From assembly GCA_020186115.1 (NCBI GenBank), contig WSYJ01000178.1, forward strand, positions 744,001 through 808,000: a stretch of 64,000 nt of DNA, written 5' to 3'. Shown piece by piece: positions 2,774 to 64,000 of this stretch. Position numbers and translations under genes: made by a program. Origin of the DNA: Histomonas meleagridis. Taxonomy: Eukaryota > Parabasalia > Tritrichomonadida > Dientamoebidae. The number at the start of each line of letters is the position of its first letter. Positions within the stretch are counted from its first letter, which is position 1. Below the pieces are notes generated by a model. It was given only the letters and a program-made list of their open reading frames with translations. It was not told where the DNA came from and made no database searches.

Positions 2774-3310
2774 AATTGAATTGAAATTAACGGTCGCCAT
2801 CAAGAATCTAATTTGGTTCGAAGCTGTTTAAAAGTATTAATCAAATGTGAAATTGTATCACATGATTTTTTATAGAAAATGATAATATACTTCGGTAATT
2901 CAACGAGACAAATCATGATTAAATGTCTATTGCCTTCAAACACATTTTTTTATGTGCAAATAACTTTACAAATTAAGTGTTCATTAAGACAAATCATGTA
3001 ATTGGGAAAAAAATTCTTATTGTTTCTTCGAAAGAAATCTTTATAATATTATAATGTACATGCTGAATATAAATTTTTGTAACAAAACTTTCCAATGTGT
3101 AACGCTATTGTTTTTGCTGAGCCGCAAAAGCAGCCATATGATTTTATGATTAAAAAAACTTATGCATCAAATATTTGATACACCAGTTTGCATGCTGATG
3201 CATTTGTATCGTGAAGAATTGTAATTTTTACATAGAAAAATTGAGAATGGCATTTGGCGCTATTAGTTACTCGTCCTGCTGCTCTGACTTCAATGATTCT
3301 ATCCTGAACC
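2774..3310. other. intergenic, no gene seen
   Basis: AT-rich with no reading frame that looks like protein. It lies upstream of eL32 (leftward) and downstream of the fragment at 3311-3676. Confidence 0.5.
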
Positions 3311-3676
3311 TTATTCTCTGGCGTTTTGAATCTTCATATGCGATATTTGGTGACCACATTGTTCATGTTCATCAGAGAGTTTGATTAAATATCCGCAAGA
3401 AGCAATCTTCTTCATAGCACAAAGGCCCATAGAATGAAGAATAAGCTTTGGTAAGTATTCATCTTCTTTTTTAAGTTGTGCTTTTCTTCGTTCAAAATTC
3501 TCAGTCCTCTTTTGTTCAGCCAAGGAATCATACTCCGTTTGAGCTTCAGCTTTTTCAACTGCTTTTGTTGTTTTCTTTGCACGTTCTTCAAGTTGTAGTG
3601 TCTGCTTGCAAAACATACAATTAGATTTAATAATGATATATGCAATTTTTTGGATTTGGAAAGTATAACAACACAA
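3311..3676 (-). pseudogene. fragment of a charged coiled-coil protein
   Basis: The open frame has no ATG at its 5' end (it opens with TTG). The first internal ATG is about 20 codons in. From there it encodes a Lys/Glu/Gln-rich helical stretch (LQLEERAKKTTKAVEKAEAQ), then a less charged tail with several Cys and His (CAMKKIASCGYL, EHEQCGHQ). The composition is protein-like and unlike the noncoding surroundings. I do not recognise the family. It could be the 3' exon or surviving end of a larger gene. Confidence 0.3.
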
Positions 3677-3919
3677 ATCAAAAGAAGAAATTCTTAATAA
3701 ATTTATAATTTTATTCTAATGTATCATACTGTTTAAATTGATGATCTGTTCTTTCTGTATCGGGATTTCTTTAATTTTCAGCCCAAAACGGGTTTTTATT
3801 TGATAGCATTATTACGGTTAACCAGAAAATTCAAAACCAAATACAGTAAGATACAGTCGTTGCATTGAATCTTTTGGAACTGTTCTCCTTGAAAAAACCG
3901 TCCAATTAAAATTGATATT

Positions 3920-4564
3920 ATGTTGGAAGGATCCTCAGAAACACAAGTAATAAAAACAACAAGTATCATAAACAAACTTTTGGGAACTCTTTACTTCCTA
4001 GGATTGACATTTTCATGTATGGTTGGAGCACAATGGCTGAATGAAGGGACATTTTATCCTTTATTCAATTCAGAAGGAACTGTATCCAAAGACATTGAAC
4101 TATTTGGTTATCCTCTTTTTATATTGGTATTGACACCAATCGAGTTATTTTTTGCAGGAATAACTTTATGTATTTATTGCTGCTGCTCAAAACCAAATAA
4201 AATCGCCGTTAGGATATTTGTGTGGCTAACTGCTATTGCTAGCATTGGGCCAATTGTTATCCATGCATGTTCTATTCCTCCAACAGAACCCGAAAAATGT
4301 GCTAAATATTACAATTTAACAACCACATATTACAAGCATAAGGTTATTGGAGGCTGCTTTGTGGCTAATACAATGAATACAGCAGTTTTAACTTTTCTTG
4401 TAATATCTCATGTAATTCTTTTTGTTTACTTAATGATAACAAACTATGGCCTACCCAGAGATCCTGAACAAGTTCCACCCGAGTCAATATTAATGGGCGA
4501 AGATACTGGTCTTCTATACGGACAGAATTCTCCACAAACAACAAACATTAATCAATTTAACTAA
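3920..4564 (+). CDS. four-span membrane protein, unknown function
   Basis: 214 residues. It has a short polar N-terminus and four hydrophobic segments (about residues 19-40, 66-90, 98-118 and 150-173). The first loop is large, with WLNEGTFYPLFNSEG, and there is a Cys-rich CIYCCCSKP motif after the second span. A second loop has Cys residues and an NLT glycosylation-type site. The soluble tail is rich in Pro, Gln and Asn. The topology matches tetraspan families such as Frag1/DRAM or claudin-like proteins, and the next gene is of that kind, so the two may be diverged relatives. No domain is secure. Confidence 0.55.
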   Translation: MLEGSSETQVIKTTSIINKLLGTLYFLGLTFSCMVGAQWLNEGTFYPLFNSEGTVSKDIELFGYPLFILVLTPIELFFAGITLCIYCCCSKPNKIAVRIFVWLTAIASIGPIVIHACSIPPTEPEKCAKYYNLTTTYYKHKVIGGCFVANTMNTAVLTFLVISHVILFVYLMITNYGLPRDPEQVPPESILMGEDTGLLYGQNSPQTTNINQFN

Positions 4565-4820
4565 AAATCGATTTTAGGTTGTAGTTTGTTTTTTGTTTAA
4601 ATTCGTTTTGAAAAATATTAAAATTTCAGATTAAATGTATTTCATTATTTGTTGGAAATGGTTTTTGTCAAATGCTTTGAGAAAGCAATTTATGTGGATG
4701 AAGGACATTAACTTAGTTTCTTTCATTGATTATGTCTTTTACTGATTTTAATGTTGATGATAATTTTTGTGTGGAATAAAAATAAACGGGTTCCTTTAAC
4801 GTTCCTTTTTTTCTGTTTGA

Positions 4821-5489
4821 ATGAAACAAAAACAACAAACAGAATCAAAGAAGTATGGAATCGAAATTTTCTTGGTCTTGGTTTCATTTATGCCACCAAT
4901 GTTTTATTTAACACTGCTTATAATTTTTATTTTGGAAGGAAGATGGGCGGGATATCTTCCAACTATTTCTGAGACAGGTACAGAGTTTCCAAATACTTCT
5001 TTTATGTTTGCTTTCTTCACTATAATTTCAGGAACAATTTTTTTTGAAATGATATTTCATTCACTCTATGTTTTCAATAATTTCAAAGTTACAAAAGTCT
5101 ACAAAGGTTTAGCATTATTCACTACGCTTTTAAGTATTTTTTTCTTTTGCTTGATTTCAGTTTTTCCATGTAATACATCACCAATAATGCATTTCACATC
5201 CACTTTTATTGGATTTTCTGGAATTGTCTTATTCCAAATTATTGTTGAACTTATTACATGCAAGAATTCATCTAAAACAAAGAATTTTTTCAGAATTTTT
5301 TCGATTATTATGCAAATCTTATCGCTACTAACTGTTGCATTGAGCCCAAAGTTGTTCAGTACAAGAATAAATGTCACCACTTCTGCCATTGGGGAGTACG
5401 GAATTGTCACATTTTTGCCAATTTTTTTCATGTCTTTTAGTAGCGAAATGTCTAAATCGAATACATTTTTGATGTTCTTAAATATTTAG
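4821..5489 (+). CDS. Frag1/DRAM/Sfk1-like membrane protein
   Basis: 222 residues with five to six hydrophobic spans. After the first span comes GYLPTISETGTEFPNTSFMF, which closely matches the loop signature of the Frag1/DRAM/Sfk1 family (P-x-I-S-D/E-T-G then a Pro-rich turn). The family comprises membrane proteins linked to GPI-anchor remodelling, autophagy or phosphoinositide control. The start is ATG 4821; frames upstream of it are low complexity. It lies about 250 bases after another tetraspan gene on the same strand. The family call is good; the function in this organism is not known. Confidence 0.65.
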   Translation: MKQKQQTESKKYGIEIFLVLVSFMPPMFYLTLLIIFILEGRWAGYLPTISETGTEFPNTSFMFAFFTIISGTIFFEMIFHSLYVFNNFKVTKVYKGLALFTTLLSIFFFCLISVFPCNTSPIMHFTSTFIGFSGIVLFQIIVELITCKNSSKTKNFFRIFSIIMQILSLLTVALSPKLFSTRINVTTSAIGEYGIVTFLPIFFMSFSSEMSKSNTFLMFLNI

Positions 5490-5833
5490 AAAAATATACA
5501 AAACCTCTTTATAATATTAAATAAAACTTATATAAATGCGCGTTTTTTATAATCTGAAACAATTGTTTTCATGAAAATTTTAATAAATCTCGAACATATA
5601 CAAATGAAGTTTCAAATACTGATATATTTTTTTATTTTGTACTAATTTATCTGTAAAACATTTTTATTTATCAATAATGGCTTTTTCAAGATAACTTTGA
5701 TTTATTTATTTTAAAAATTTAATCTATTTAATAGATAAACTTAATTTAATATTTATCAAGATAAATGAAGACTCTAATTAGAGTTATCAACACTAAAAAA
5801 ATAAGAAGAAAAACAGAAAGAATTTATATTTAT
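5490..5833. other. intergenic between convergent genes
   Basis: Very AT-rich 3' region shared by the converging Frag1-like gene and the karyopherin-like gene. No gene or structured RNA seen. Confidence 0.5.
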
Positions 5834-8251
5834 TTAAGCAAATTGTTTCATATACAAATAAGTCTTTGAAGCCGCTCTAATTTTTTCATTATAAATTGAC
5901 ATTTTCCTAATTTCATCAATGTTTGGATCCATTAAATCAGTGTGCACGAACGAAATAATTATTTCTGGATCCATCACATTCGCCAACACATGTCTAAAGA
6001 TATTTATATATCTTTGGAAATCCTTTTTCGCGAAATTAAACAAAATGTCTGTTTCTCTCAAACCATATGAAAGTATTATATTAAAAGTCATTATCCAAAA
6101 CTCATCGCTCAAAAACGTATATACATTATCGAACATTATATTTAAAGTTTCGAAAATTTTAGAGAAAATTTCTTCGAAAATTTTCGCGGTATTGAACATA
6201 TACATTAAAAGGTCAGCAATAAATCGATATGAATATTCGGTACATAAAACAGCTTTCAATTTATGTTCCATACATAAGGTACCAATAAGTTGAAATATTT
6301 TTATAGGCAAATTCGGCCTCATTTTAATTTGCCTAAAAATCAATTCTGTTACAATTGGATGAAGAAGTTCGATTCCTATTTTTAATGCTCGTTTTATATA
6401 GTCATCATGTTCATCATCTGCGCAAACCCAATTTAATGTTTGCGTTAATATTTCGATGACAAATTGCGGATTTTTCGATGATATTTTTAACGCATCTGAA
6501 TATAAATGTCGATTTACCATTTCTCTAACAAATGGTTCAACATTAATTTCGATTTTTTCTTTTAATAATCCACAAATTAAAGATGAAGCAATTCGGATTT
6601 CATTATCACTTTGTGTCATTAATTGCGAAATTAATAAAAACGTGTTTTGTGATGGTGAAATCGATACAATTGTTTCAAGGATTTTAGGACTTAATGGCGC
6701 ATTTTGTGGAATCGCTTCTAATTGAATATTATTAACTTTCGCAAAATTAATCGTTGCATCCATAACATCATCGTCATCAGCATAATTTTGTAACATGAAA
6801 TTGAACACTGATTGCGCGCTATCGTTTGGAGGAAGGTCTTTGTAAACTATACAAATTGTCTGTGATATTAATGAAGAAGAAATTGCGTATTTCATCATTA
6901 TTGGTGATGTTATTATGTTTAACGTAATACCTGCTATTTGATTATAAAAGTTTTGAAATCCTTCTGAATCTATGTAATGTGTAAGAAAAGTATCTAAATA
7001 TTTTGTCGATAAATAGCATTGCATTAATGTCATGTTTTCATTATAAGAATTAACAATGATATTTAATGATGTAATTGGATCACTTTGACATACATATACA
7101 ATATTATCAATGAGAAAATCAAATACATCAACAACGTCTTCATCATATTCTTTAATTGTGGCAATTTGTTTAGTAATAAGTTGTGGTATAAATGCAATTA
7201 TACGTTGATCGGGTGCTTGCATTGTCATTTCATAACGGGAAACAATTGTTACAAGACATAAAATTGTGGAATTTAATTCACTATATTGATTAGATTCTGC
7301 AAAAAATAATGATAAGGAAAATAATAACTTGTACAATGGATCTGATGGATCATATTCTTTAAACACTTTAAGAATTTTATTGATGACATCAATGACTGGC
7401 TCAAATTGAAGTTGCATTGAAACGCTTAAAATGCTCTCAAAAAGTGGAATTATTTGTGTTGAATCGTTAACGATAGGTATTGAAATCGAAAAGAACTGAA
7501 GAACATATGACTTTTGGATTTCATTAAGATCAGGTCGAAACAAGACTTCTGGGATTTGGGTGACCTTTGAAGAAATTTGTATCCTCATTTGTTCAAGGAA
7601 TTCTGGAATATTGAAATTAATTTGAAATGAAATCGATTTTAACAAAGTAACAAGAGAAGGCTGTGTGTATTCAATGATATAAAAGCTAAGAATATCAAGC
7701 GCAGGTCGAGATGGAGAAGCATAAAAATAATTAATTATTGTTTCTAAAAATGTAGGGAAAATTTGTACGATAACAATGAAATTAACATCGCCAAATATAG
7801 GAACATCATGAGCAATTTGAAGTACATTACAAAGCTCTGAGAAAAATATAATTGCTATTGGTGGTGGGAAACTTTGAATTAAAGGAAGAATTTCTGGAAC
7901 ATTATTTGGATTAAGCAAATGAAAACATCCAACTGCTATGCACCTGCAAACAGCAGTAAGAACAATATTGTTTGAAACTGATAAAGAATATGATATTAAT
8001 ACTTGAATAACATTTTGAAGAAAATCACGTGGAACAAGTGGGTGAAGCAAGCTTGCTAAAACAGTGAAAATGTAATATTGAGCATTTGGATTTAAACCTT
8101 TATTCATTGAGAATAATGTCAATTGCCAAACTTGTTCGATCCCAAGCGACCTCATTTGATTTTTCATTTCTAAAATGTCGTCTGTCCATTTCTCTTGTTC
8201 CTTAGTTTTTTGATCAAAGACCTCCAAGAATTGTTCTGGACTGTTCTGCAT
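5834..8251 (-). CDS. HEAT-repeat protein, exportin/importin-like
   Basis: 805 residues, almost entirely amphipathic helices, with no low-complexity or membrane regions. The N-terminal 150 residues (WTDDILEMKNQMRSLGIEQ, then a helix pair with LLHPLVPRDFLQNVIQVL) look like the start of an importin-beta/exportin solenoid of the transportin-3/importin-13 class. Such carriers bind Ran-GTP and move cargo through nuclear pores. The fold is well supported by helix periodicity; the karyopherin identity is inference. It is divergent from the TAF5-like gene: only 68 bases separate the two starts, so they share a promoter region. Confidence 0.5.
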   Translation of the reverse strand: MQNSPEQFLEVFDQKTKEQEKWTDDILEMKNQMRSLGIEQVWQLTLFSMNKGLNPNAQYYIFTVLASLLHPLVPRDFLQNVIQVLISYSLSVSNNIVLTAVCRCIAVGCFHLLNPNNVPEILPLIQSFPPPIAIIFFSELCNVLQIAHDVPIFGDVNFIVIVQIFPTFLETIINYFYASPSRPALDILSFYIIEYTQPSLVTLLKSISFQINFNIPEFLEQMRIQISSKVTQIPEVLFRPDLNEIQKSYVLQFFSISIPIVNDSTQIIPLFESILSVSMQLQFEPVIDVINKILKVFKEYDPSDPLYKLLFSLSLFFAESNQYSELNSTILCLVTIVSRYEMTMQAPDQRIIAFIPQLITKQIATIKEYDEDVVDVFDFLIDNIVYVCQSDPITSLNIIVNSYNENMTLMQCYLSTKYLDTFLTHYIDSEGFQNFYNQIAGITLNIITSPIMMKYAISSSLISQTICIVYKDLPPNDSAQSVFNFMLQNYADDDDVMDATINFAKVNNIQLEAIPQNAPLSPKILETIVSISPSQNTFLLISQLMTQSDNEIRIASSLICGLLKEKIEINVEPFVREMVNRHLYSDALKISSKNPQFVIEILTQTLNWVCADDEHDDYIKRALKIGIELLHPIVTELIFRQIKMRPNLPIKIFQLIGTLCMEHKLKAVLCTEYSYRFIADLLMYMFNTAKIFEEIFSKIFETLNIMFDNVYTFLSDEFWIMTFNIILSYGLRETDILFNFAKKDFQRYINIFRHVLANVMDPEIIISFVHTDLMDPNIDEIRKMSIYNEKIRAASKTYLYMKQFA

Positions 8252-21689: not shown

Positions 21690-22056
21690 TCGCATTCACC
21701 AGCAGCCACATAGTACTTACGCCACAAATATAATCACACAAACTTCTATAACCAAATTCACATTCACACAGTACTTACGCCACAAATATAATCACTCAAA
21801 CTTCTATAACCAAATTCACATTCACACAGTACTTACGCCACAAATATAATCACACAAACTTCTATAACCAAATTCACATTCACACAGTACTTACGCCACA
21901 AATATAATCACACAAACTTCTATAACCAAATTCACATTCACACAGTACTTACGCCACAAATATAATCACTCAAACTTCTATAACCAAATTCACATTCACA
22001 CAGTACTTACGCCACAAATATAATCACTCAAACTTCTATAACCAAATTCGCACAGC
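21690..22056. repeat. 58-bp tandem minisatellite
   Basis: About six copies of a 58-base unit. The anchor GTACTTACGCC recurs at 21713, 21771, 21829, 21887, 21945 and 22003, exactly 58 bases apart. Copies differ mainly at one position (ATCACACAA versus ATCACTCAA). The outermost copies and flanks (21600-21700, 22040-22090) hold degenerate pieces (AATCACAACTCAAATTTCT, CAGCGTCAATTTCAC). The array lies between the start of the SPAG17-like gene and the 3' end of the kinase gene. It has no long open frame and is recent, given near-identity of units. Confidence 0.95.
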
Positions 22057-24719: not shown

Positions 24720-26555
24720 TCAGTAATATGTTTCATTGAGCTCACCGTACGTTGGGCCGTATTTGATTTTACTCGGAATCGGTATCTTTAATCCTAACAT
24801 TGATGAACAATTTGCATAATTTGTTATTTGATTTAACAACTCATTAAATTCATTAGCATCAGACATAACTTCTGTTTGGAATAACCATTCGTCATGTAAT
24901 TGTAATAATGGTTCAATTTCATTGATGTTATCTAAAATATGAATCAACGCAAACTTAACAAAATCTGCTGCGCTTCCTTGGATTAATGTATTGATGGCAA
25001 TTCTTTGATCTCGTTTTCGTTCGAATGATGAATTACTTTTAATGTTTGGTAATATTCTTCTTTTCCCACATAACGTTTTAACATATCCATCTTTCGTAAC
25101 TTGAGAAGTAATTTTTTCAACAAATTTTTTGATGTTTGGAAATGTCTTTAATAAAGAACTTAATTTTTGCCCTTTTTCATTTCCATCTTTTGTCCAACTT
25201 TTTCCATATATTGTTGCATACACAGCTTGTTTAGCTTCTTTTCTTTGTTCTTTAGTAACTTCATTAATGTCATTCAAATTATATATCAGCATAGCAATAT
25301 GTGAATGAACATCGATTTGTAAATTATTACATAGTTCTGTTAATTTATTATCTTCGACATAATGTGCTAAGATACGTAATTCAAGTTGTGAATAATCTAA
25401 TGATATTAATATATAATTAGAATTAATTGGAAAAAATAATTTTCGTATATTAATTTCAGTGTTTGTTGGAATGTTTTGAAGATTCGGTGACGTTATCGAT
25501 ATTCGTCCTGTTGATGTTGAACAAGGATGGAAAAATGGATGTAAATTACAATCATTGTCACAATATTCATTGAAGTTTAACCAATTCGATGATATTTTTT
25601 GTAATGTTCGATATCGTAATATTAATGGTATTATTGGATGTTGAATCTTTGATATGAATTGAAAACTTGTTGGAGCAAAGTTACGATGATGTGTAATGAC
25701 TTGATGACGACTATTAATTGATATTGGATTATTCTTTTGTAAGAACTCATTTGGAATTTGTAAATGTAATGTATTAAATAATATATTACTAACTTCATAT
25801 GGTGATAATATATTAAATTCTTCTTTTGAGATTTTATAGATTTCATTCCGTAATTCCATTAGTTGTCTTTCTATGTCTTCTTTTATTATTAATGATTCAG
25901 TGACATTATATGATAATGATTTTAAATGCATTTGCCCAAGTATCCGAATATGTTTCATTTCGATTAAATTTATCCATTTTAATGAATTGTTTTTTTGGAT
26001 TTCGTCATATATGGAAATGAATATATTAAACCATTGTTGAATATTATTAGTGTTTGTAATACTAGAAATTGGATATATGACTTCCGATTTTTGATATGAT
26101 TCTGTGTTATTAAACCATACGCCAATGATTGGGTCAAAAAATTCAATATTGGAACAAAAATCTGGTTCCATAGAAAAAACCCATGAAGAATTCGGTAAAA
26201 AATGGATACATGTTTCATCAAATAATACATTAGTTAAATAAGGATCCATATTTATAGGCTCTACTTCATTTTCTAAATGAAATCTAATTTGTGTTATTGT
26301 TTCAATTGGTTGAATTTTAGGCACTTTGTTATATTCTAAGTTTGAAATAGAATCATTAGATATAATTTCCCATATTATTTTCCCAGAAAAAATTCGATTT
26401 TCATCATCAGACAAAAATTGAATATCTTCAAAATTATGTGAACTAGAATCTAATGGCGGAATCGGGCCTTCCCATTCAGGAAATGCAAATCTAAACAAAG
26501 TTTCGTATGGAAACTCTTTTGTCATTTGATTTGATGTTACAACATCAAAGTGCAT
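24720..26555 (-). CDS. family A DNA polymerase, POLQ/POLN-like
   Basis: 611 residues covering a degenerate N-terminal part and a complete polymerase domain. Family A motifs are plain: STGRISITSPNLQNIP, motif A ISLDYSQLELRILAH (about 385), motif B RKEAKQAVYATIYG (about 435) and motif C LQLHDEW (about 553), with the catalytic Asp residues in A and C and the O-helix Arg/Lys intact. IQGSAADFVK and CGKRRILPN are also typical. No 3'-5' exonuclease motifs, 5' nuclease or helicase domain is seen. The sequence is closest in style to the nuclear POLQ/POLN polymerases of translesion synthesis and end joining. The start codon lies 51 bases after the arginine deiminase stop codon on the same strand. Confidence 0.85.
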   Translation of the reverse strand: MHFDVVTSNQMTKEFPYETLFRFAFPEWEGPIPPLDSSSHNFEDIQFLSDDENRIFSGKIIWEIISNDSISNLEYNKVPKIQPIETITQIRFHLENEVEPINMDPYLTNVLFDETCIHFLPNSSWVFSMEPDFCSNIEFFDPIIGVWFNNTESYQKSEVIYPISSITNTNNIQQWFNIFISIYDEIQKNNSLKWINLIEMKHIRILGQMHLKSLSYNVTESLIIKEDIERQLMELRNEIYKISKEEFNILSPYEVSNILFNTLHLQIPNEFLQKNNPISINSRHQVITHHRNFAPTSFQFISKIQHPIIPLILRYRTLQKISSNWLNFNEYCDNDCNLHPFFHPCSTSTGRISITSPNLQNIPTNTEINIRKLFFPINSNYILISLDYSQLELRILAHYVEDNKLTELCNNLQIDVHSHIAMLIYNLNDINEVTKEQRKEAKQAVYATIYGKSWTKDGNEKGQKLSSLLKTFPNIKKFVEKITSQVTKDGYVKTLCGKRRILPNIKSNSSFERKRDQRIAINTLIQGSAADFVKFALIHILDNINEIEPLLQLHDEWLFQTEVMSDANEFNELLNQITNYANCSSMLGLKIPIPSKIKYGPTYGELNETYY

Positions 26556-39049: not shown

Positions 39050-40393
39050 ATGACTGAAAGCACACAAACACTTGAATTAGAAAATGAGGCAAATAATGCA
39101 TCAATCAAAAGCCAATCTATATATATGCAAAAGTTGATTTTTTTAGAACAGGTTATATTTAATCTCACAGAAAAAAACTTTGAAATTTCTGTCGCAAAAA
39201 CAATGAATTTTTTTGACAAAGATATTCCTTTCACATTTAATTATTGTATAATTGTTTTAATTTATTTAGCATTTTCATCTCAAAGAGAATCAATCCAAAC
39301 ATATTTCAATTTTTTACAAGAAATTCAAACACAAGAAGAAGCAATTCTTCACAATAATCCAAAAATTATTGAAATTTTTACTAATTATATATCAGAATTT
39401 AATACACAAGAGACATATTATATCATTGAAAAAATGATTGAAAACGAATTAATTAATATAAATATTACCAAAAACTTTAATACCAATTATTTTGCACATT
39501 ATAAAACAGAAGAAGAAAACAAGAAAAACGATTCTAAAGATTCATTCAATGAAGAATTTAAAAATAATTATGAAAAATTATCAAAGAATGATTGGGAACT
39601 TCATAAGCAATTAGTTAAAGAAGGAGTTAATCCGAATGAAATATCAAAAATCATTCGAAATGATGATATAGAGAAACTTCAAGAAATATCAACACAAGAA
39701 GATTTCGATTTTAATCAAATCATTAAACCATCACTTTATGCACGATATTCATTTATTAACAAAGAAAATGTTACATTAATTGATTTTGCTGCATTTTTTG
39801 GAGCAATTCAATGTTTTAAATATTTATTATTGAACAACGCAAAAGTTGAAAATACAGGTAAATATGCAATTGCAGGTGGAAATCTTGAAATTATTTATTT
39901 ATGTGAACAAAATCATTCGACATTTGACGATGTTTATGAAATAGCAATTAAATTTCATCGAAATGACATCTTTAAATATATTTATGAAAACAAAATCGAA
40001 AAACTAGATCAAAACAATCAACAACATTTATTAACATATGTAATTACAAACAAAATTCCATTTAAAAACTTTGGATATTATATAAGTAACACACAAACAT
40101 TAACTGATATTAAATTCCAAGAACAAATTTATCAATGTATTAATATTGGTAATTATGAAATTCTTTCATTTTTAGAAGAAGAAATCAAATTCGATGAATA
40201 TATAATTAATGTAACAGCAAAAACAGGTAATTTATATCTTGTCGAATATTTTCTTGAACATAATCAAATTCCGAAAAACATTTTAGTTTTTGCATTAGAA
40301 TTGAACTTGTTCAGTATTATTAAACAAGAAGGGATTGATATTAATGCTAAAAATATTAATTTGTTTGTATTAAAATATGTTTTAATGTTTTGA
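39050..40393 (+). CDS. DUF3447/ankyrin protein, header frame (locus B)
   Basis: 447 residues from ATG 39050. The helical N-terminal half (about 1-170) is the least conserved part of the family. KNDWELHKQLVKEGVNPNEI starts the DUF3447 domain, followed by DDIEKLQEISTQEDFDFNQ, LIDFAAFFGAIQCFKYLLL, GKYAIAGGNLEIIYLCEQNH and IKFHRNDIFKYIYEN. Ankyrin-like units continue to the end. The final codons after INAKNI (LFVLKYVLMF, stop) are reading into the spacer. An array of further ankyrin blocks follows on the same strand, so the protein is probably longer than this frame. Confidence 0.8.
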   Translation: MTESTQTLELENEANNASIKSQSIYMQKLIFLEQVIFNLTEKNFEISVAKTMNFFDKDIPFTFNYCIIVLIYLAFSSQRESIQTYFNFLQEIQTQEEAILHNNPKIIEIFTNYISEFNTQETYYIIEKMIENELININITKNFNTNYFAHYKTEEENKKNDSKDSFNEEFKNNYEKLSKNDWELHKQLVKEGVNPNEISKIIRNDDIEKLQEISTQEDFDFNQIIKPSLYARYSFINKENVTLIDFAAFFGAIQCFKYLLLNNAKVENTGKYAIAGGNLEIIYLCEQNHSTFDDVYEIAIKFHRNDIFKYIYENKIEKLDQNNQQHLLTYVITNKIPFKNFGYYISNTQTLTDIKFQEQIYQCINIGNYEILSFLEEEIKFDEYIINVTAKTGNLYLVEYFLEHNQIPKNILVFALELNLFSIIKQEGIDINAKNINLFVLKYVLMF

Positions 40394-41509
40394 TATTTTA
40401 AAATAATATTTGGAATTTTATTAAATTATTTAGAACATCTTTAATGATAGCAACTATAAAAGGTTATATAGGAATTGTTCAATTTCTTATAGAACAAGAA
40501 GGAATTAACTTAAACTTAAAGATATTCGTATGCATTACACAAAATCGATATTAAAAATTTTGGGTTTTAAAAAATAATTTGGAATTTAATTATTAAATTT
40601 GATACCGCACTTTTATTGGCTTCGCAATATGATCAAACTGAAATATTTAAAATACTTCTTAAGAAAGAAGAAAACATTAATAACGTCAACATTGTTTTTG
40701 TTTATTTTATGTTAGTTACAATAAATTGATATTTTAAATATGTATTAGGTAATTATTTTCAATATTTAAATCAATTTTATATTTTGAAACCGAAAAAAAT
40801 CACATCTAAATGGTTAAATTACTTCTTGAGCAAGAAAAAATTGATATTAATGTTAAAGATGTTTATTTGTTTTATTTAATATATATTTCAACAATTTACA
40901 ATTTAAAAACAATATTTGGAATTTAATTAAATTATTTAAAACGCCACTTATTATAGCAGTTTCAAATAGATATTTTGAAATGGTTAAGTTACTTCTTGAA
41001 CAAAAAGGAATTGATGTTAATGCTATAGATATTTAATCATTATTTACAAAATTTTAATATTTCCAAATAATATTTGGAAATTATTTAAATTATTTCAAAC
41101 AGCACTTATTTTAGCATCTGAAAATGGTCATACAGAAATAGTTAAATTACTTCATGAACAAAAAGGAATTGATATTAATGCTAAAGATATTTATTTGTTT
41201 TATTTAAAATTTATTTTAATAATTTAATATTTCAAAATAATATTTGGAAATTATTTAAATTATTTTGGACAGCACTTATGAAAGCATCTAGAAATGGTTA
41301 TACAGAAATAGTTAAATTACTTCTTGAACAAAAAGGAATTGATATTAATGCTAAAGATATTTATTTGTTTTATTTGGTATTTATTTTAATAATTTAATAT
41401 TTCAAAATAATGATTGGAAATTATTTAAATTATCTGAAACAGCACTTATTTGGGCATCTTTAAATGGCCACAAAGAAATAGTTGATTTATTAAATTCTCA
41501 AACCGAATA
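40394..41509 (+). repeat. ankyrin array with about 170-bp units (locus B)
   Basis: Seven blocks follow the header frame. The first (TSLMIATIKGYIGIVQFLIE) contains a one-base deletion near 40519. The second (DTALLLASQYDQTEIFKILL) is open. A third is reduced to its end (WLNYFLSKKKLILM-like, broken). Four better ones follow, including ALILASENGHTEIVKL and ALMKASRNGYTEIVKLLLEQ. Block ends recur at 41186 and 41356, 170 bases apart. The last block (ALIWASLNGHKEIVDLLNSQ) ends TE and a stop near 41508. Spacers of about 71 nt between blocks contain TAA stops in several frames. Parts of this locus are damaged. Confidence 0.75.
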
Positions 41510-58605: not shown

Positions 58606-61600
58606 TTATTTTGTCTTTTTCAAAAATCTAAATATAGTTAATTCATAATTTAATTTTTGTTCATCATATTCGATACCATCAATTTCCTTAAGGAGATTCA
58701 CAATTTCTTTTTTCTTTTCTTTAGCTGCAATTAAAATTGCTGTATCAAATAATTTTAATAATTTCCAAGTATTGTTATAAAACATCAAAATAGAACAACA
58801 AAAATTAAATTACGTAAAAAGATATTTTTAGCATTAACATTAATTCCTTCTTGTTCAAGAAGTAATTTAACTGTTTCTATGCAGCCATTTCTAGAAGCAA
58901 TCATAAGTGCTGTATAAAATATTTTAAATAATTTCCAAATATTATTTTGAAATCCAAAATTATCAAAATTAATTTTAAATAAAAAAAATAAACGTTTTTG
59001 GCATTAATGTCAATTCCTTTTTGTTCAAGAAGTAATTTAACGATTTCTGTACGACCATTTGAAAATGCTAAAATAAGTGCTGTATTATATAATTTAAATA
59101 ATTTTCAAATATTATTTTGAAATATTAAATTATTAAAATAAATTTTAAATAAAACAAATAAATATCTTTAGCATTGATATCAATTCCTTCTTGTTCAAGA
59201 AGTAATTGAACTATTTCTGTATGACCATAATAAGATGCATTCATAAGTGCTGTTCTAAATAATTAAAATAATTTCCAAATATTATTTTGAAATATTAAAT
59301 TATGAAAATAAATTCTAAATAAAACAAATAAATATCTTTAGCATTAATATCAATTCCTTCTTGTTCAAGAAGTAATTTAATTACTTCTATATTACCTTTA
59401 TAAGATGCAAATATAAGTGGTGTTTCAAATAATATTCATTATCTCCAAATAATAATATCATATATTAAAATATAAAAATAAAAATTAAATGAAAGAATCA
59501 AACATTTTTAGCACTAACATCAAAACAATTTTGGTCAAGAAGGAATTTAAGTGTATCTATATGTCCATTTCTAGAAGCATACATAAGTGCTGTATCAAGA
59601 TATTTAAAAAAATTTCTTTAATTATTTTGAAACATTAAAAGATTGGAACAATTATTAAACAAATTATATATACATTTTTCAAAGTTATATCATTTCCTTC
59701 TTGTTCAAAAATTAATTTAAAAGTTTCAAAGTTAACATTTGATGCTGCTGCCATAAGTGCTGTTTCAAATATTATAAACAAATTCCATATATATTTATGA
59801 TATATTAAATTATATAGACAAAAATTATTTACGAAAAATAAATATTTTTTATATGAATATCAATCTTTTTTTGATCAAGAAGTAATTTAACTAACTCTGG
59901 CTTGCAGTATCTAGCTGCATATATAATTGCTGTATTAAATAACTCCAATAATTTCCATATGTTTTGCTAAAATATCAAATAATTGATACAAATATTAAAT
60001 GATGTATATAAATATCAGTGGAATTAATATCAATACCTTCATTTTCAAGAATCAGTTTAACTTTTTCTATTCTATCAAACCTGCATGCTGTCATAAGTAT
60101 TGTCATAAATAATTTGAATAATTTCCAAATTATATTTTGAAATATCATAATATTAAAATATATTTTAATTAAAACAAACAAATATCTTTATCATTAATGT
60201 CGATTTCTTGATGTTCAAGAAATAATTTAAATATTTTTTCAACATTTGTTTGCATTAAAACTGTTTTAAATAATTTTAATAATTTCCAAATATTATTTTG
60301 AAATATTAAATTATGAAAATAAATTCTAAATAAAAGAAATAAATATCTTTAGCATTGATATCAATTCCTTCTTGTTCAAGAAGTGATTTAACTATTTCTG
60401 TATGACCATTTTCAGATGCTAAAATAAGTGCTGTTTGAAATAATTTAAATAATTTCCAAATATTGTTTTGAAATCATAAATTATTAAAATAAAATCCAAA
60501 TAAAATAAATAAATATCTTTAGCATTAATATCAATTCCTTCTTGTTCAAGAAGTAATTCAACTATTTCTGTATGACCATAATAAGATGCATTCATAAGTG
60601 CTGTTCTAAATAATTAAAATAATTTCCAAATATTATTTTGAAATATTAAATTATGAAAATAAATTCTAAATAAAACAAATAAATATCTTTAGCATTAATA
60701 TCAATTCCTTCTTGTTCAAGAAGTAATTTAACGTTTTCAATATGACCTTTTTCAGATGCTTTCATAAGTGCTGTATTAAATACTTCAAATAATTTCCAAA
60801 TATTATTTTGAAATATAAAATCATTAAAATAAATTCCAAATAAAACAAATAAATATCTTTAGCATTAATATCAATTCCTTCTTGTTCAAGAAGGAGTTTA
60901 ATCATATCTACATTATCGTTTTTAGATGCTGCCATAAGTGCTGTATTAAGCAATTTGAATAAATTTCAAATATTATTTTGAAATATCACATTAATGAATA
61001 AAATGTACATATAAAATTTATAAATATCTTTGTAATTTATATTATATTTCTTATTTTCGATTAAATATTTTGCAACATGAATTTTGTCAAATTTGGCTGC
61101 TTTTATAAGTGCTTCCTTATAATGATTAAATAAATTTTAAATATGAATATGAAATTCCAAAATATTAAAATAAATTAAATGAAAAAGTTAAAAACAAAAT
61201 CATCTTCTTCAAATTCATCTGGGTAATCTAATAGTAATTCTACAAGTTCAATGTTTCCATTTTCAATTGCACAATCAAGTTCATTCTCAAAAAAATTTTA
61301 GAAATCATTTCAATGAGACAAAAGTAATCCCATTTCCTATTCTAATTCCTTTGATTCCAAGAAGCATTTTAACAATTTCTGTATTTCCATTTTGACATGC
61401 ATATGTTAATTCTGTATTAAATGAATAAAATGAATACCAAAAATTTAAATGATACAGGATTTTTTTATAAAAAATATCAAAAATTAATAATAAACTTCAA
61501 AAAAGTAAATTTTACAATAAAAAATCAAAAGTAATATGTAAAGCATAAATATAAATATTTTTTTGTTGAAGAAGTAATTTTACAATTTCTGGATAACCTT

Positions 61601-61800
61601 TTATACATGCAATTTGAAGTGATGTATGAAAAATACAAAAAAAATTCCAAATTTTATTTTGAAATATTAAATCTATTTCGTTCAAATAGAAGATAAAAAC
61701 TACACAATCATTAACATCAATATTATCTTGTTCAAGAAGATATTTAACAATTTCAGTACAACCATTTTCTGTTGCATAAGTTAATGCAGTATGTTTAGAA
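58606..61800 (-). repeat. long ankyrin array with about 170-bp units (locus E)
   Basis: About 19 ankyrin blocks downstream of the DUF3447 frame at 61781-63133. Young blocks are near-identical (ALMKASEKGHIENVKLLLEQ, ALMNASYYGHTEIVELLLEQ). Old ones are strongly diverged yet open: ALTYATENGCTEIVKYLLEQ, SLQIACIKGYPEIVKLLLQQ, ELTYACQNGNTEIVKMLLG, ELDCAIENGNIELVELLLD, AIIYAARYCKPELVKLLLDQ and ALMAAASNVNFETFKLIFEQ. I found no stop or frameshift inside the blocks I translated. Spacers of about 45-75 nt, often with stops and of varying phase, separate them. The last block (AILIAAKEKKKEIVNLLKEI) goes on to a unique C-terminus and a stop at 58606-58608. Confidence 0.85.
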
Positions 61801-63133
61801 ACACCATTTGGTGATACATATAAATGAAATTAATACTAAAATGTTCATTAATATTATTAATACCTTTTTCTTCAATAAGATATTTAACAAGTTCAACATT
61901 TCCTGAACCTGATGCAAGTACTAAAATATTTGGTGGAATATTATCTTTATTAAGAAAATCTTTGATAAGATACAAATTACCATGGATCGCTGATTCACGA
62001 ATAATATCATTAATCTCAATTTTATCTTCTAAAAATGAAAAAATTTGATAATTATGATATTGAATACATTTTATTATGTCACTTATATTTTTGTTTTTGA
62101 TTCTTTCAAAAATTTCCAACGATTTCGTTGGAAAATCAAAATTCATTTGAATTTTTTTAATCATTTCTAAATTTATAGAATTTTCTTGATTGCCTTTTTC
62201 TAAATTTTCTAAATTATTTTCATAAAGATATTTAAAGATATCATTTCGATGAAACTTAATTGCTGTTTCATATGCACCTTCAAATGTTGAATGATTTTGT
62301 TCACATAAATGAATAATTTCTTTATTTCCACCTGCAACTGCATATTTACCTGTATTTTTTATATCCGAACCATTCATAAGTAAATATTTAAAACATTTAA
62401 TTGAACCAAAAAATGCTGCATAATCAATTAATGTAACATTTCTTTGATTAACAAATGAATATCTTTCATATATTGATGATTCAATTGCTTGATTAAAATC
62501 AAAATCATTTTGTGATGATATTTCTTGAAGTTTTTCTATTTCATCTTTTCGAATTATTTTTGCAATTTCATTCGGATTTTCTCCCTCTTCAATTAATTGT
62601 TTATGAAGTTTCCAATCATTTTTCGAAAGTTCGTCAAAGTGATAATAAAAATTATTGAAAAAATCAGATGATAATTTTTTTATTTCATGAATTTCTTCAT
62701 CTTTTAGAAGGTGTGCAAAATAGAGCTTTTTAAAATTATATGTAAAATTTAAATTTTTTATATCATATAAATTATGTTCAATTAGTTTTTCCGTGATAAA
62801 ATATGATTCATTTGTTTCAGATGTAACAATAAAGTTTATGAACATGTTGATTATATTTGAAATATTTGGATTGATTTTTTTTTCTTTGATTTCAAGAATT
62901 TGCATAAATTTTAAATAAATTTCAAAATTTTTCCTATGTGAAACAAAAGAGTAATATACCATTTGGGATATCATAAAATTAAATGTATATGAAAATTCCT
63001 CATCATAAGTGTTCATTATTAATTCAACTGAAGATTCAACATTATTATCATCTAGGCTAAAAATAATTTGAACCATATTGCTTAATTTATTAAGGCATTC
63101 GAATTTAACCATCCAGTAAAAATGCTCGACCAT
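61781..63133 (-). CDS. DUF3447/ankyrin protein, header frame (locus E)
   Basis: 450 residues from ATG 63133. N-terminal helical half with VQIIFSLDDNNVESSVELIM and YTFNFMISQMVYYSFVSHRK. The DUF3447 domain starts KNDWKLHKQLIEEGENPNEI and has DYAAFFGSIKCFKYLLMNGS, GKYAVAGGNKEIIHLCEQNH and IKFHRNDIFKYLYENN. Further ankyrin units follow, ending NVELVKYLIEEKGINNINE. After this the frame is lost; the next ankyrin block (KHTALTYATENG) continues two bases out of phase with only a short intervening stretch. With the array downstream the full product could be roughly three times the length of a single header domain. Confidence 0.8.
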   Translation of the reverse strand: MVEHFYWMVKFECLNKLSNMVQIIFSLDDNNVESSVELIMNTYDEEFSYTFNFMISQMVYYSFVSHRKNFEIYLKFMQILEIKEKKINPNISNIINMFINFIVTSETNESYFITEKLIEHNLYDIKNLNFTYNFKKLYFAHLLKDEEIHEIKKLSSDFFNNFYYHFDELSKNDWKLHKQLIEEGENPNEIAKIIRKDEIEKLQEISSQNDFDFNQAIESSIYERYSFVNQRNVTLIDYAAFFGSIKCFKYLLMNGSDIKNTGKYAVAGGNKEIIHLCEQNHSTFEGAYETAIKFHRNDIFKYLYENNLENLEKGNQENSINLEMIKKIQMNFDFPTKSLEIFERIKNKNISDIIKCIQYHNYQIFSFLEDKIEINDIIRESAIHGNLYLIKDFLNKDNIPPNILVLASGSGNVELVKYLIEEKGINNINEHFSINFIYMYHQMVFLNILH

Positions 63134-63369
63134 GAGTGAATAAAGTATTGAAACATAAACGTCAAATTATGACGAACATCAGAATCACATTACTTGAAAT
63201 TAAATAATAAACGGCACAACGATAAATTTAACGTTCTTTCAAAAGTTGATGATCGATATCGTCGTTATCGTCAAATTTATAACGATACGCCAATATAAAC
63301 TGGCATTTTTTTTTGTGAATTTTGATAGGATTGTTTTTCGTGGTTTGAATATCACTTAACATTTGAGTG
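63134..63369. other. divergent promoter region
   Basis: Lies between locus E (minus) and the TKL kinase (plus). It contains AAACGGCA at 63209-63216, whose complement TGCCGTTT fits the M3 consensus, about 76 bases before the locus E start. Confidence 0.4.
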
Positions 63370-64000
63370 ATGCTTGTTTCAGAAAGAAATGAGCACGAAT
63401 TCACTAAGGAAGAACAACGTCGTATCATTGATTCTCTTGACTTGTTCGAAATTTCAGAAAAAAATATACATAAAGGAAAATTCTGTATTGATAGAGGAAT
63501 CATCAAATACACAGGACAAATCGTTGCAATGAAAAGAGCCTTAACAGAAGATTCATATAAATCACTTGTTAATGAATTCAAGACGTTATGTAAATTATCA
63601 CATCCAGCAGTCCAATCATTAGTTGGTTTTTATTCCAATCCTGATTACAAAAAGGCAGTTCTTATTACCCCGTTTTATATTAATGGTACTTTACGTAACA
63701 TCATTAATTCACCTCCTTCAGAATGGAATTTACTTACAAAAACTATGATTATCTTTGGAATTGCTACTGGTTTAAAGTATCTTCATGAGAAAGGTATAAT
63801 ACATCATGATCTTAAATGATAATATTCTCATTGATGATAACTTTCATCCAATTATTGCAGGTTTTGGTGATTCACATAAAAATCCTAAAGGAGAACTAAT
63901 GTTCACACTTCCATATATTGCACCTGAAGTTTTATCAGGAGGACAATATACACCAAAAACTGATGTATATTCATTTGGGCTTCTTGTAAATGAAATTTTT
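63370..64000 (+). pseudogene. TKL-type protein kinase, frameshifted, cut by window end
   Basis: ATG 63370 (a GTG lies just before it). The N-lobe has GKFCIDRGIIKYTGQIVAMK (Lys in VAMKRA), then HPAVQSLVGFY and LITPFYINGTLRNII, the style of the expanded trichomonad TKL family. The catalytic loop reads IIHHDLK and the frame then stops at TGA (63817-63819). Reading two bases off phase continues with DNILIDDNFHPIIAGFGDSH, PYIAPEVLSGGQY and KTDVYSFGLLVNEIF. A normal kinase would have HRDLKPDN here, so about two bases are missing. In addition HRD is HHD and DFG is GFG, losing the metal-binding Asp. The C-lobe runs off the window. Confidence 0.8.

Follow-up and report, generated by a model that had tools for sequence, protein, structure and literature searches.

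Stop-bearing spacers between the ankyrin blocks of Histomonas meleagridis: candidate non-canonical introns

Background

According to the consulted passages of the respective paper, the 63 introns of Trichomonas vaginalis have GT/AG borders and an extended motif at the 5' end, their branch site is fused with the 3' motif, and they occur one per gene (PMC12316389). Nonconventional introns of euglenids lack GT-AG borders, have paired ends and coexist with conventional introns, and the mechanism of their removal is unknown (PMC4770533, excerpts). The noncanonical introns of diplonemids likewise lack GT-AG borders, have paired ends and coexist with conventional introns (PMC12621601, excerpts). Here we analyse a stretch of 64,000 nucleotides (nt) of the parabasalid Histomonas meleagridis, termed the window (contig WSYJ01000178.1, positions 744,001 to 808,000, assembly GCA_020186115.1), in which a locus of the minus strand, locus E, consists of a DUF3447 open reading frame (ORF) followed by ankyrin repeat blocks that alternate with AT-rich spacers.

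The spacers share features with each of the described systems. Like the type A/B spliceosomal introns of trichomonads they are short, and a conventional intron of this genome (locus L030) measures 71 nt as well; unlike these, they have no GT-AG ends, no 5' motif and no branch/3' motif, and whereas trichomonad introns come one per gene, up to about 45 spacers are present per array. With euglenid and diplonemid introns they have in common the lack of GT-AG borders and the presence of conventional introns in the same genome, but the base-paired ends of those introns have no counterpart, the pairing of spacer ends being no better than with swapped partners. Ribosomal bypass elements are non-coding stretches within a coding region with stops near the edge, and known cases need matching take-off and landing codons. 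The spacers resemble them in being non-coding stretches inside a coding region with stops near the edge, but are without matching take-off and landing codons and very many per gene. In the literature searched, no account of such spacers or of ankyrin arrays of H. meleagridis was found.

Results and discussion

Architecture of locus E

The first-pass annotation of the window had described about 19 blocks after the DUF3447 frame at a spacing of roughly 170 bp. The DUF3447 ORF was found to hold block 1, with 19 more blocks following, and 13 of the 19 spacings are exactly 170 nt; the remaining six are 140, 165, 210, 130, 171 and 161 nt, the last one coinciding with a block three residues short that is followed by an ordinary 77-nt spacer. 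Four Pfam ankyrin families scored above the cut-off in this ORF and DUF3447 slightly below (26.3 versus 26.9 bits). The ORF terminates slightly past spacer 1, out of frame with block 2. The unique C-terminus with its own stop, described earlier, was located behind the last block (Table 1). Spacers had been characterized as containing stops and changing the phase: when read on in the frame of the block before them, 14 of the 19 spacers contain a stop, and 16 change the phase, so 18 show at least one of the two, and the description fails for spacer 2 alone, which is in frame and open. Outside locus E the phase change is not strict, as spacings of 171, 153 and 150 nt occur.

Spread of the block-spacer unit

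A DNA search of the organism's own genome yielded at least 215 matches (40 of 1,701 candidate places scored) and at least 150 places with DUF3447 (150 of 1,695 candidates scored), with stops inside the DUF3447 match in 2 of the 150 rows. Together with 20 fetched loci, the window provided a set of 32 arrays with 3 to 46 blocks each, 385 blocks in total. Among the spacings below 400 nt in these arrays, 170 nt was the most common (n=257), followed by 171 nt (n=24) and 153 nt (n=20). In eight further loci, picked from earlier matches, the downstream blocks lie in shifting frames in all eight cases. The array in L049 consists of divergent ankyrin repeats; one of its spacers resembles tandem AT-rich units of about 20 nt (by eye). 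Consensus junction flanks 55-85 nt apart were present as exact matches at 1,111 places genome-wide. Exact flanks are present in merely 143 of the 390 spacers of the main set, and the eight further loci have them in 10 of 60 spacers; the true number of spacers is therefore probably several times greater than 1,111, and extrapolation from either share gives a probable genome total of roughly 3,000-6,700.

The same search bears on the idea of a silent cassette store, in which the blocks serve as gene-conversion donors to an expressed gene without spacers. The hypervariable block codons do match the positions that we take to be variable in ankyrin repeats. But spacer-less junctions, i.e., exact consensus flanks 0-15 nt apart, were absent genome-wide, versus the 1,111 with a spacer, block 1 of the upstream ORFs differs in type from the array blocks at most loci inspected, and selection per donor would be weak across thousands of donors. 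We regard a cassette store as highly improbable.

Open frames and selection on the blocks

In locus E all 20 blocks are open, in agreement with the earlier description of blocks free of stops and frameshifts. The thirteen measured 77-nt spacers of this locus have a mean divergence of 17 %. In a neutral simulation, the consensus block was evolved to the degree of divergence seen in the adjacent spacers; a mean of 7.5 of 13 blocks stayed open, and all of them did so in 0 of 2000 runs. With the divergence of the blocks themselves, 9.6 of 20 remained open on average, never all. Among the full blocks of the window and the 20 fetched loci (n=341), 315 were open at the DNA level, 22 had a frameshift and 4 a stop. 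In three of the frameshifted blocks the call stems from a loss of 2 nt at the extreme block end, which may be an alignment effect. Indels within blocks were multiples of three in 25 of 47 events.

The claim that the blocks are selected as protein was borne out by comparisons of closely related units. Among 255 units, 87 disjoint close pairs were compared, and their own spacers supplied the neutral rates. The block frame showed 145 nonsynonymous changes versus 396 expected and 45 synonymous changes versus 50 expected, i.e., a ratio of nonsynonymous to synonymous changes relative to expectation (N/S) of 0.41, and of 0.27 for core codons. Stop changes in this frame were 0 versus 28.6 expected. 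The two shifted block frames gave N/S values of 1.09 and 1.02, with 52 and 32 stops versus 62 and 102 expected, and the six spacer frames ranged from 0.61 to 1.52, with stops in five of them. For 40 pairs of mutual nearest neighbours, of which 20 were identical, N/S was 0.21 and stops were 0 versus 4. In a tree built from 229 distinct units, the tip branches carried 1 stop change in core codons versus 43 expected, at an N/S of 0.55; on short tips the stops were 0 versus 8 expected and the ratio 0.38. Surface codons showed 16 apparent stop changes on tips, which arise from reconstructed ancestors, because stops are present in no more than 2 tips, both of L026. In two samples of 120 from 200 units, with L022, L026 and stop-bearing blocks excluded, codon-model omega was 0.59-0.65 overall, 0.42-0.44 in core codons and 0.69-0.81 in surface codons; a sample of 70 units gave 0.77 overall. 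The contrast of core and surface codons is partly circular, because the split was picked after the variation was seen; the all-codon stop counts are unaffected. Translation of the blocks in the spacer-bearing state is thus well supported by these substitution patterns.

The opposite view is that of dead or satellite-like arrays, in which the protein ends in spacer 1 and the downstream blocks are relics of unequal exchange. The upstream ORF indeed ends 105-204 nt after the first block start in 17 of the 25 arrays with a listed upstream ORF, that is, in or slightly past the first spacer. As 26 of the 341 blocks are broken, some arrays are decaying. Seven blocks are frameshifted in L022, a 42-block array in which we also observed that one frameshifted block type recurs several times, and 2 blocks are stopped in L026. 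In the copy at 39-41.5 kb of the window, block 1 carries deletions, block 2 is frameshifted and block 4 contains a stop; the blocks decayed in this copy remain open in its paralogues L043, L045 and L046. L048 has lost one unit, with the resulting hybrid block still in frame. A rare-allele test gave N/S values of 0.76-1.19, near 1, and, for variants in up to 3 of 255 units, 6 stops versus 8.1 expected. We judged this test to be biased, because its filter retains constrained columns and discards mutable neutral sites, spacers included. Its outcome nonetheless lends no support to selection. Neutral decay of the frames, as expected of pseudogenes, was found in some arrays but not overall; the absence of stop changes in close pairs, their near absence in core codons on tips and the complete set of open blocks in locus E at its level of spacer divergence speak against general death of the arrays, which we consider unlikely.

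Coding edges of the spacers

In 174 spacers, the set after removal of near-identical ones, the block frame meets a stop already at the first spacer codon in 9 cases, while the codon directly before the next block is a stop in none. For a scan of the edges, 320 of the 390 spacers were used and 70 from decayed or suspect arrays excluded; edge pairs denote the numbers of spacer bases kept as coding at the 5' and 3' edge. The pairs (0,0), (0,3), (0,6) and (1,5) are free of stops in all 320 spacers, and (2,4) has 3 stops. Keeping three or more bases at the spacer start produces at least 17 stops, and keeping nine in total at least 12. Spacer 15 of locus E opens with TGA in the block frame, so an edge choice keeping three spacer bases is barred. 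The coding edges are thereby located to within one or two bases. With six bases kept, the repeat has 33 codons, the usual length of an ankyrin repeat, and the stretch to be removed measures 71 nt for 263 of 320 spacers, as the first-pass annotation had given for the standard unit. For spacer 7 of locus E, one favoured choice removes positions 60781-60851 (71 nt) and leaves 60775-60780 as coding. Coding on both flanks and a non-coding interior, as expected of an intron, are thus present.

These edges limit an explanation by ordinary spliceosomal introns with degenerate GT-AG borders at shifting positions. GT-AG was found in 0 of 320 spacers at each of the edge pairs (0,3), (0,6), (1,5) and (2,4). 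If up to 9 nt of the flanking exon may be lost, a GT..AG pair with a workable frame is available in 81 of 338 spacers, so the earlier statement that no GT..AG works holds at block-compatible edges only. A U6 RNA with ACAGAGA is present in the genome (43.7 bits, cut-off 44). The conventional intron of L030 on the minus strand, which starts with GTATGTTTTA, ends with ACTAACACACAG, spans 71 nt and leaves a clean frame once its flanks are joined, shows by contrast the full rigid motifs, GTATGT...ACTAACACACAG; its host gene we take to be a DHHC palmitoyltransferase. A search for GTATGT at a gap of 10-40 nt to ACTAACACACAG had 0 matches genome-wide, because the gap of the L030 intron is longer. The 12-mer ACTAACACACAG alone occurs at 3 exact sites versus 2 in the control, and with one mismatch at 131 versus 130, and is therefore unusable for counting introns. 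Of the two exact sites besides that of L030, the site in L031 lies within an open stretch with no listed 5' motif in the preceding 260 bases, and for the site in L029 no open joined frame was obtained. The spacers were found to differ from the L030 intron, as expected from the earlier view that they are unlike the described introns of this group, and degenerate ordinary introns appear very improbable to us.

Alternatively, ribosomes may cross the spacers during translation, either by bypass or by shifting the frame again and again. In the standard 170-nt unit a single -1 shift would be required at each spacer, the frame of the next block is open across the whole spacer in 219 of 311 cases, and with bypass any stops would be ignored. 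However, stops are present in either frame near both edges, and 16 of the 20 in-frame 60-nt spacers contain stops, although these spacers need no shift. Matching take-off and landing codons were seen in 10, 3 and 0 of 320 spacers at three places. About eighteen serial events would be required in locus E, a very inefficient process, and we hold this explanation to be improbable.

Sequence and signals of the spacers

Counted including the six kept bases, 311 of the 390 spacers have 77 nt, 20 have 60 nt and 19 have 78 nt, the rest other lengths. The removed length is 71 nt in the standard unit and 54 nt in the second (60-nt) class. Of the 390 spacers, 367 are not readable through; 52 are multiples of three in length, of which 23 are open and 29 have stops. 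The element TTTGG is present in 327 of 390 spacers; in 303 of these its start lies 26 nt ahead of the following block, a distance shared by the classes of 60 to 80 nt. GG at spacer positions 55-56 is retained in 43 of 51 non-redundant 77-nt spacers at a G+C content of 13 %, even though just one other spacer base is more mutable than G in close pairs. Unit positions 108, 110 and 128 of the spacer are hypervariable between conserved neighbours, with four states at 128. The 3' motif of trichomonads is lacking, as had been noted before: ACTAAC and CACAG each occur in 0 of 390 spacers; GTATGT was found anywhere in the spacer in 3 of 390.

Table 1 Features of locus E and other features in the window
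Feature	Position in the window	Strand	Remarks
Locus E as a whole	58606-63133	minus	DUF3447 ORF including block 1, then 19 blocks
DUF3447 + ankyrin ORF	61781..63133	minus	450 amino acids (aa); last repeat is block 1
Block 1	61838-61930	minus	Last repeat of DUF3447 ORF
Ankyrin array, 20 blocks	58606..61930	minus	31 codons per block by hidden Markov model; all open
Spacer 1	61791..61837	minus	47 nt, out of frame
Spacer 2	61626..61697	minus	72 nt, in frame and open; sole readable one of 19
Spacer 3	61416..61532	minus	117 nt
Spacer 4	61286..61322	minus	37 nt
Spacer 5	61116..61192	minus	77 nt
Spacer 6	60945..61022	minus	78 nt
Spacer 7	60775..60851	minus	77 nt
TTTGG element of spacer 7	60796..60800	minus	Starts 26 nt before next block
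Spacer 8	60605..60681	minus	77 nt
Spacer 9	60435..60511	minus	77 nt
Spacer 10	60265..60341	minus	77 nt
Spacer 11	60104..60180	minus	77 nt
Spacer 12	59934..60010	minus	77 nt
Spacer 13	59764..59840	minus	77 nt
Spacer 14	59594..59670	minus	77 nt
Spacer 15	59424..59500	minus	77 nt; first codon in block frame TGA
Spacer 16	59254..59330	minus	77 nt
Spacer 17	59084..59160	minus	77 nt
Spacer 18	58914..58990	minus	77 nt
Spacer 19	58744..58820	minus	77 nt
Stop TAA of the unique C-terminus	58606-58608	minus	
Paralogous DUF3447-ankyrin locus	39050-41492	plus	Array decaying
Family A DNA polymerase ORF	24720-26555	minus	611 aa; adjoining arginine deiminase ORF
Tandem array	21707-22049		58-bp unit, 5.9 copies, 98 % matches
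Kinase-like frame	63367-64000	plus	Broken near 63819 directly after HHDLK motif (by eye)

Relatives in other organisms

A protein search revealed 72 relatives, of which 23 were inspected. P0001-P0016 lie on short contigs, which may be either DNA or complementary DNA. P0001 has at most 60 % identity to this genome and is therefore not from it. P0017, a protein named as from H. meleagridis, has no identical match in this genome (best 69 %). Two blocks are joined without a spacer in P0009, within one codon of the predicted edge, and the protein then ends in a spacer-like tail; a search with this region returned P0009 itself and one other match of 35 % identity. P0005 continues into a tail resembling a spacer read in the same frame, and P0015 contains an apparent spacer of the 60-nt class in frame. 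A search with a read-through query found 7 proteins, none of them named H. meleagridis. P0022 of Tritrichomonas foetus and P0075 have the domain order of locus E, DUF3447 followed by ankyrin repeats. Unlike in the spacer-bearing arrays, the many repeats of P0075 (1027 aa) are encoded together with DUF3447 in one uninterrupted ORF.

Probable removal of the spacers from RNA

We consider it probable that the spacers are non-canonical introns which leave the RNA and that each locus is one gene with joined ankyrin blocks. If the blocks are translated with the spacers present, loss of the spacers from the RNA would be the most economical consequence; we infer removal at the RNA level and transcription of the whole array as one unit. 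In each gene the DUF3447 ORF would lead into as many as about 46 ankyrin exons, each 33 codons long. Precise excision of the AT-rich spacers from the RNA (71 nt for the standard class, 54 nt for the second) would fuse the blocks into a single long ankyrin protein, whose domain order is uninterrupted in a relative. The element TTTGG, which lies some 20 nt ahead of the 3' edge, and a T-rich edge would be the likely signals.

Several observations weigh against this reading, besides the broken blocks and the rare-allele test. No recognisable splice signal was found in the spacers, which lack the rigid motifs of the L030 intron. Consensus folding of 51 non-redundant spacers gave an alifold energy of 0.0, and the pair counts and duplex energies of their ends were about equal to those of swapped partners. 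As they stand, 23 of the 390 spacers are readable through, one of them among the 19 of locus E. The close-pair N/S of the block frame rises to 0.95 or 0.74 under uniform or Hasegawa-Kishino-Yano expectations, and overall omega is merely moderately below 1 (0.59-0.77). Seven proteins of P0001-P0021 end exactly at a block edge, as would equally be expected if the proteins just terminate at this point, and no joined H. meleagridis protein was found in protein searches limited by query length. The annotation of H. meleagridis, made by AUGUSTUS trained on a transcriptome, has 573 introns with a maximum of one per gene (PMC8529796, excerpts). In the main text of that genome paper the word ankyrin is absent (PMC8529796).

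Conclusions

The wider picture is more tentative and, on balance, somewhat doubtful: thousands of introns of about 71 or 54 nt, marked by TTTGG at a constant distance from the 3' edge and without GT-AG borders or pairing ends, may be removed by a second splicing route that exists alongside the rigid conventional one. They would be of a kind undescribed in parabasalids and lie between tandem ankyrin exons that vary most at the codons of the binding surface, giving rise to very long, evolvable ankyrin proteins. Removal of the spacers would add at least 1,111 introns, none with a splice signal of a described type, to the 573 annotated ones of an intron-poor lineage, and would mean that the annotation misses many long ankyrin proteins. 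The dozens of similar introns in each array would then form a natural series for decoding the removal machinery.

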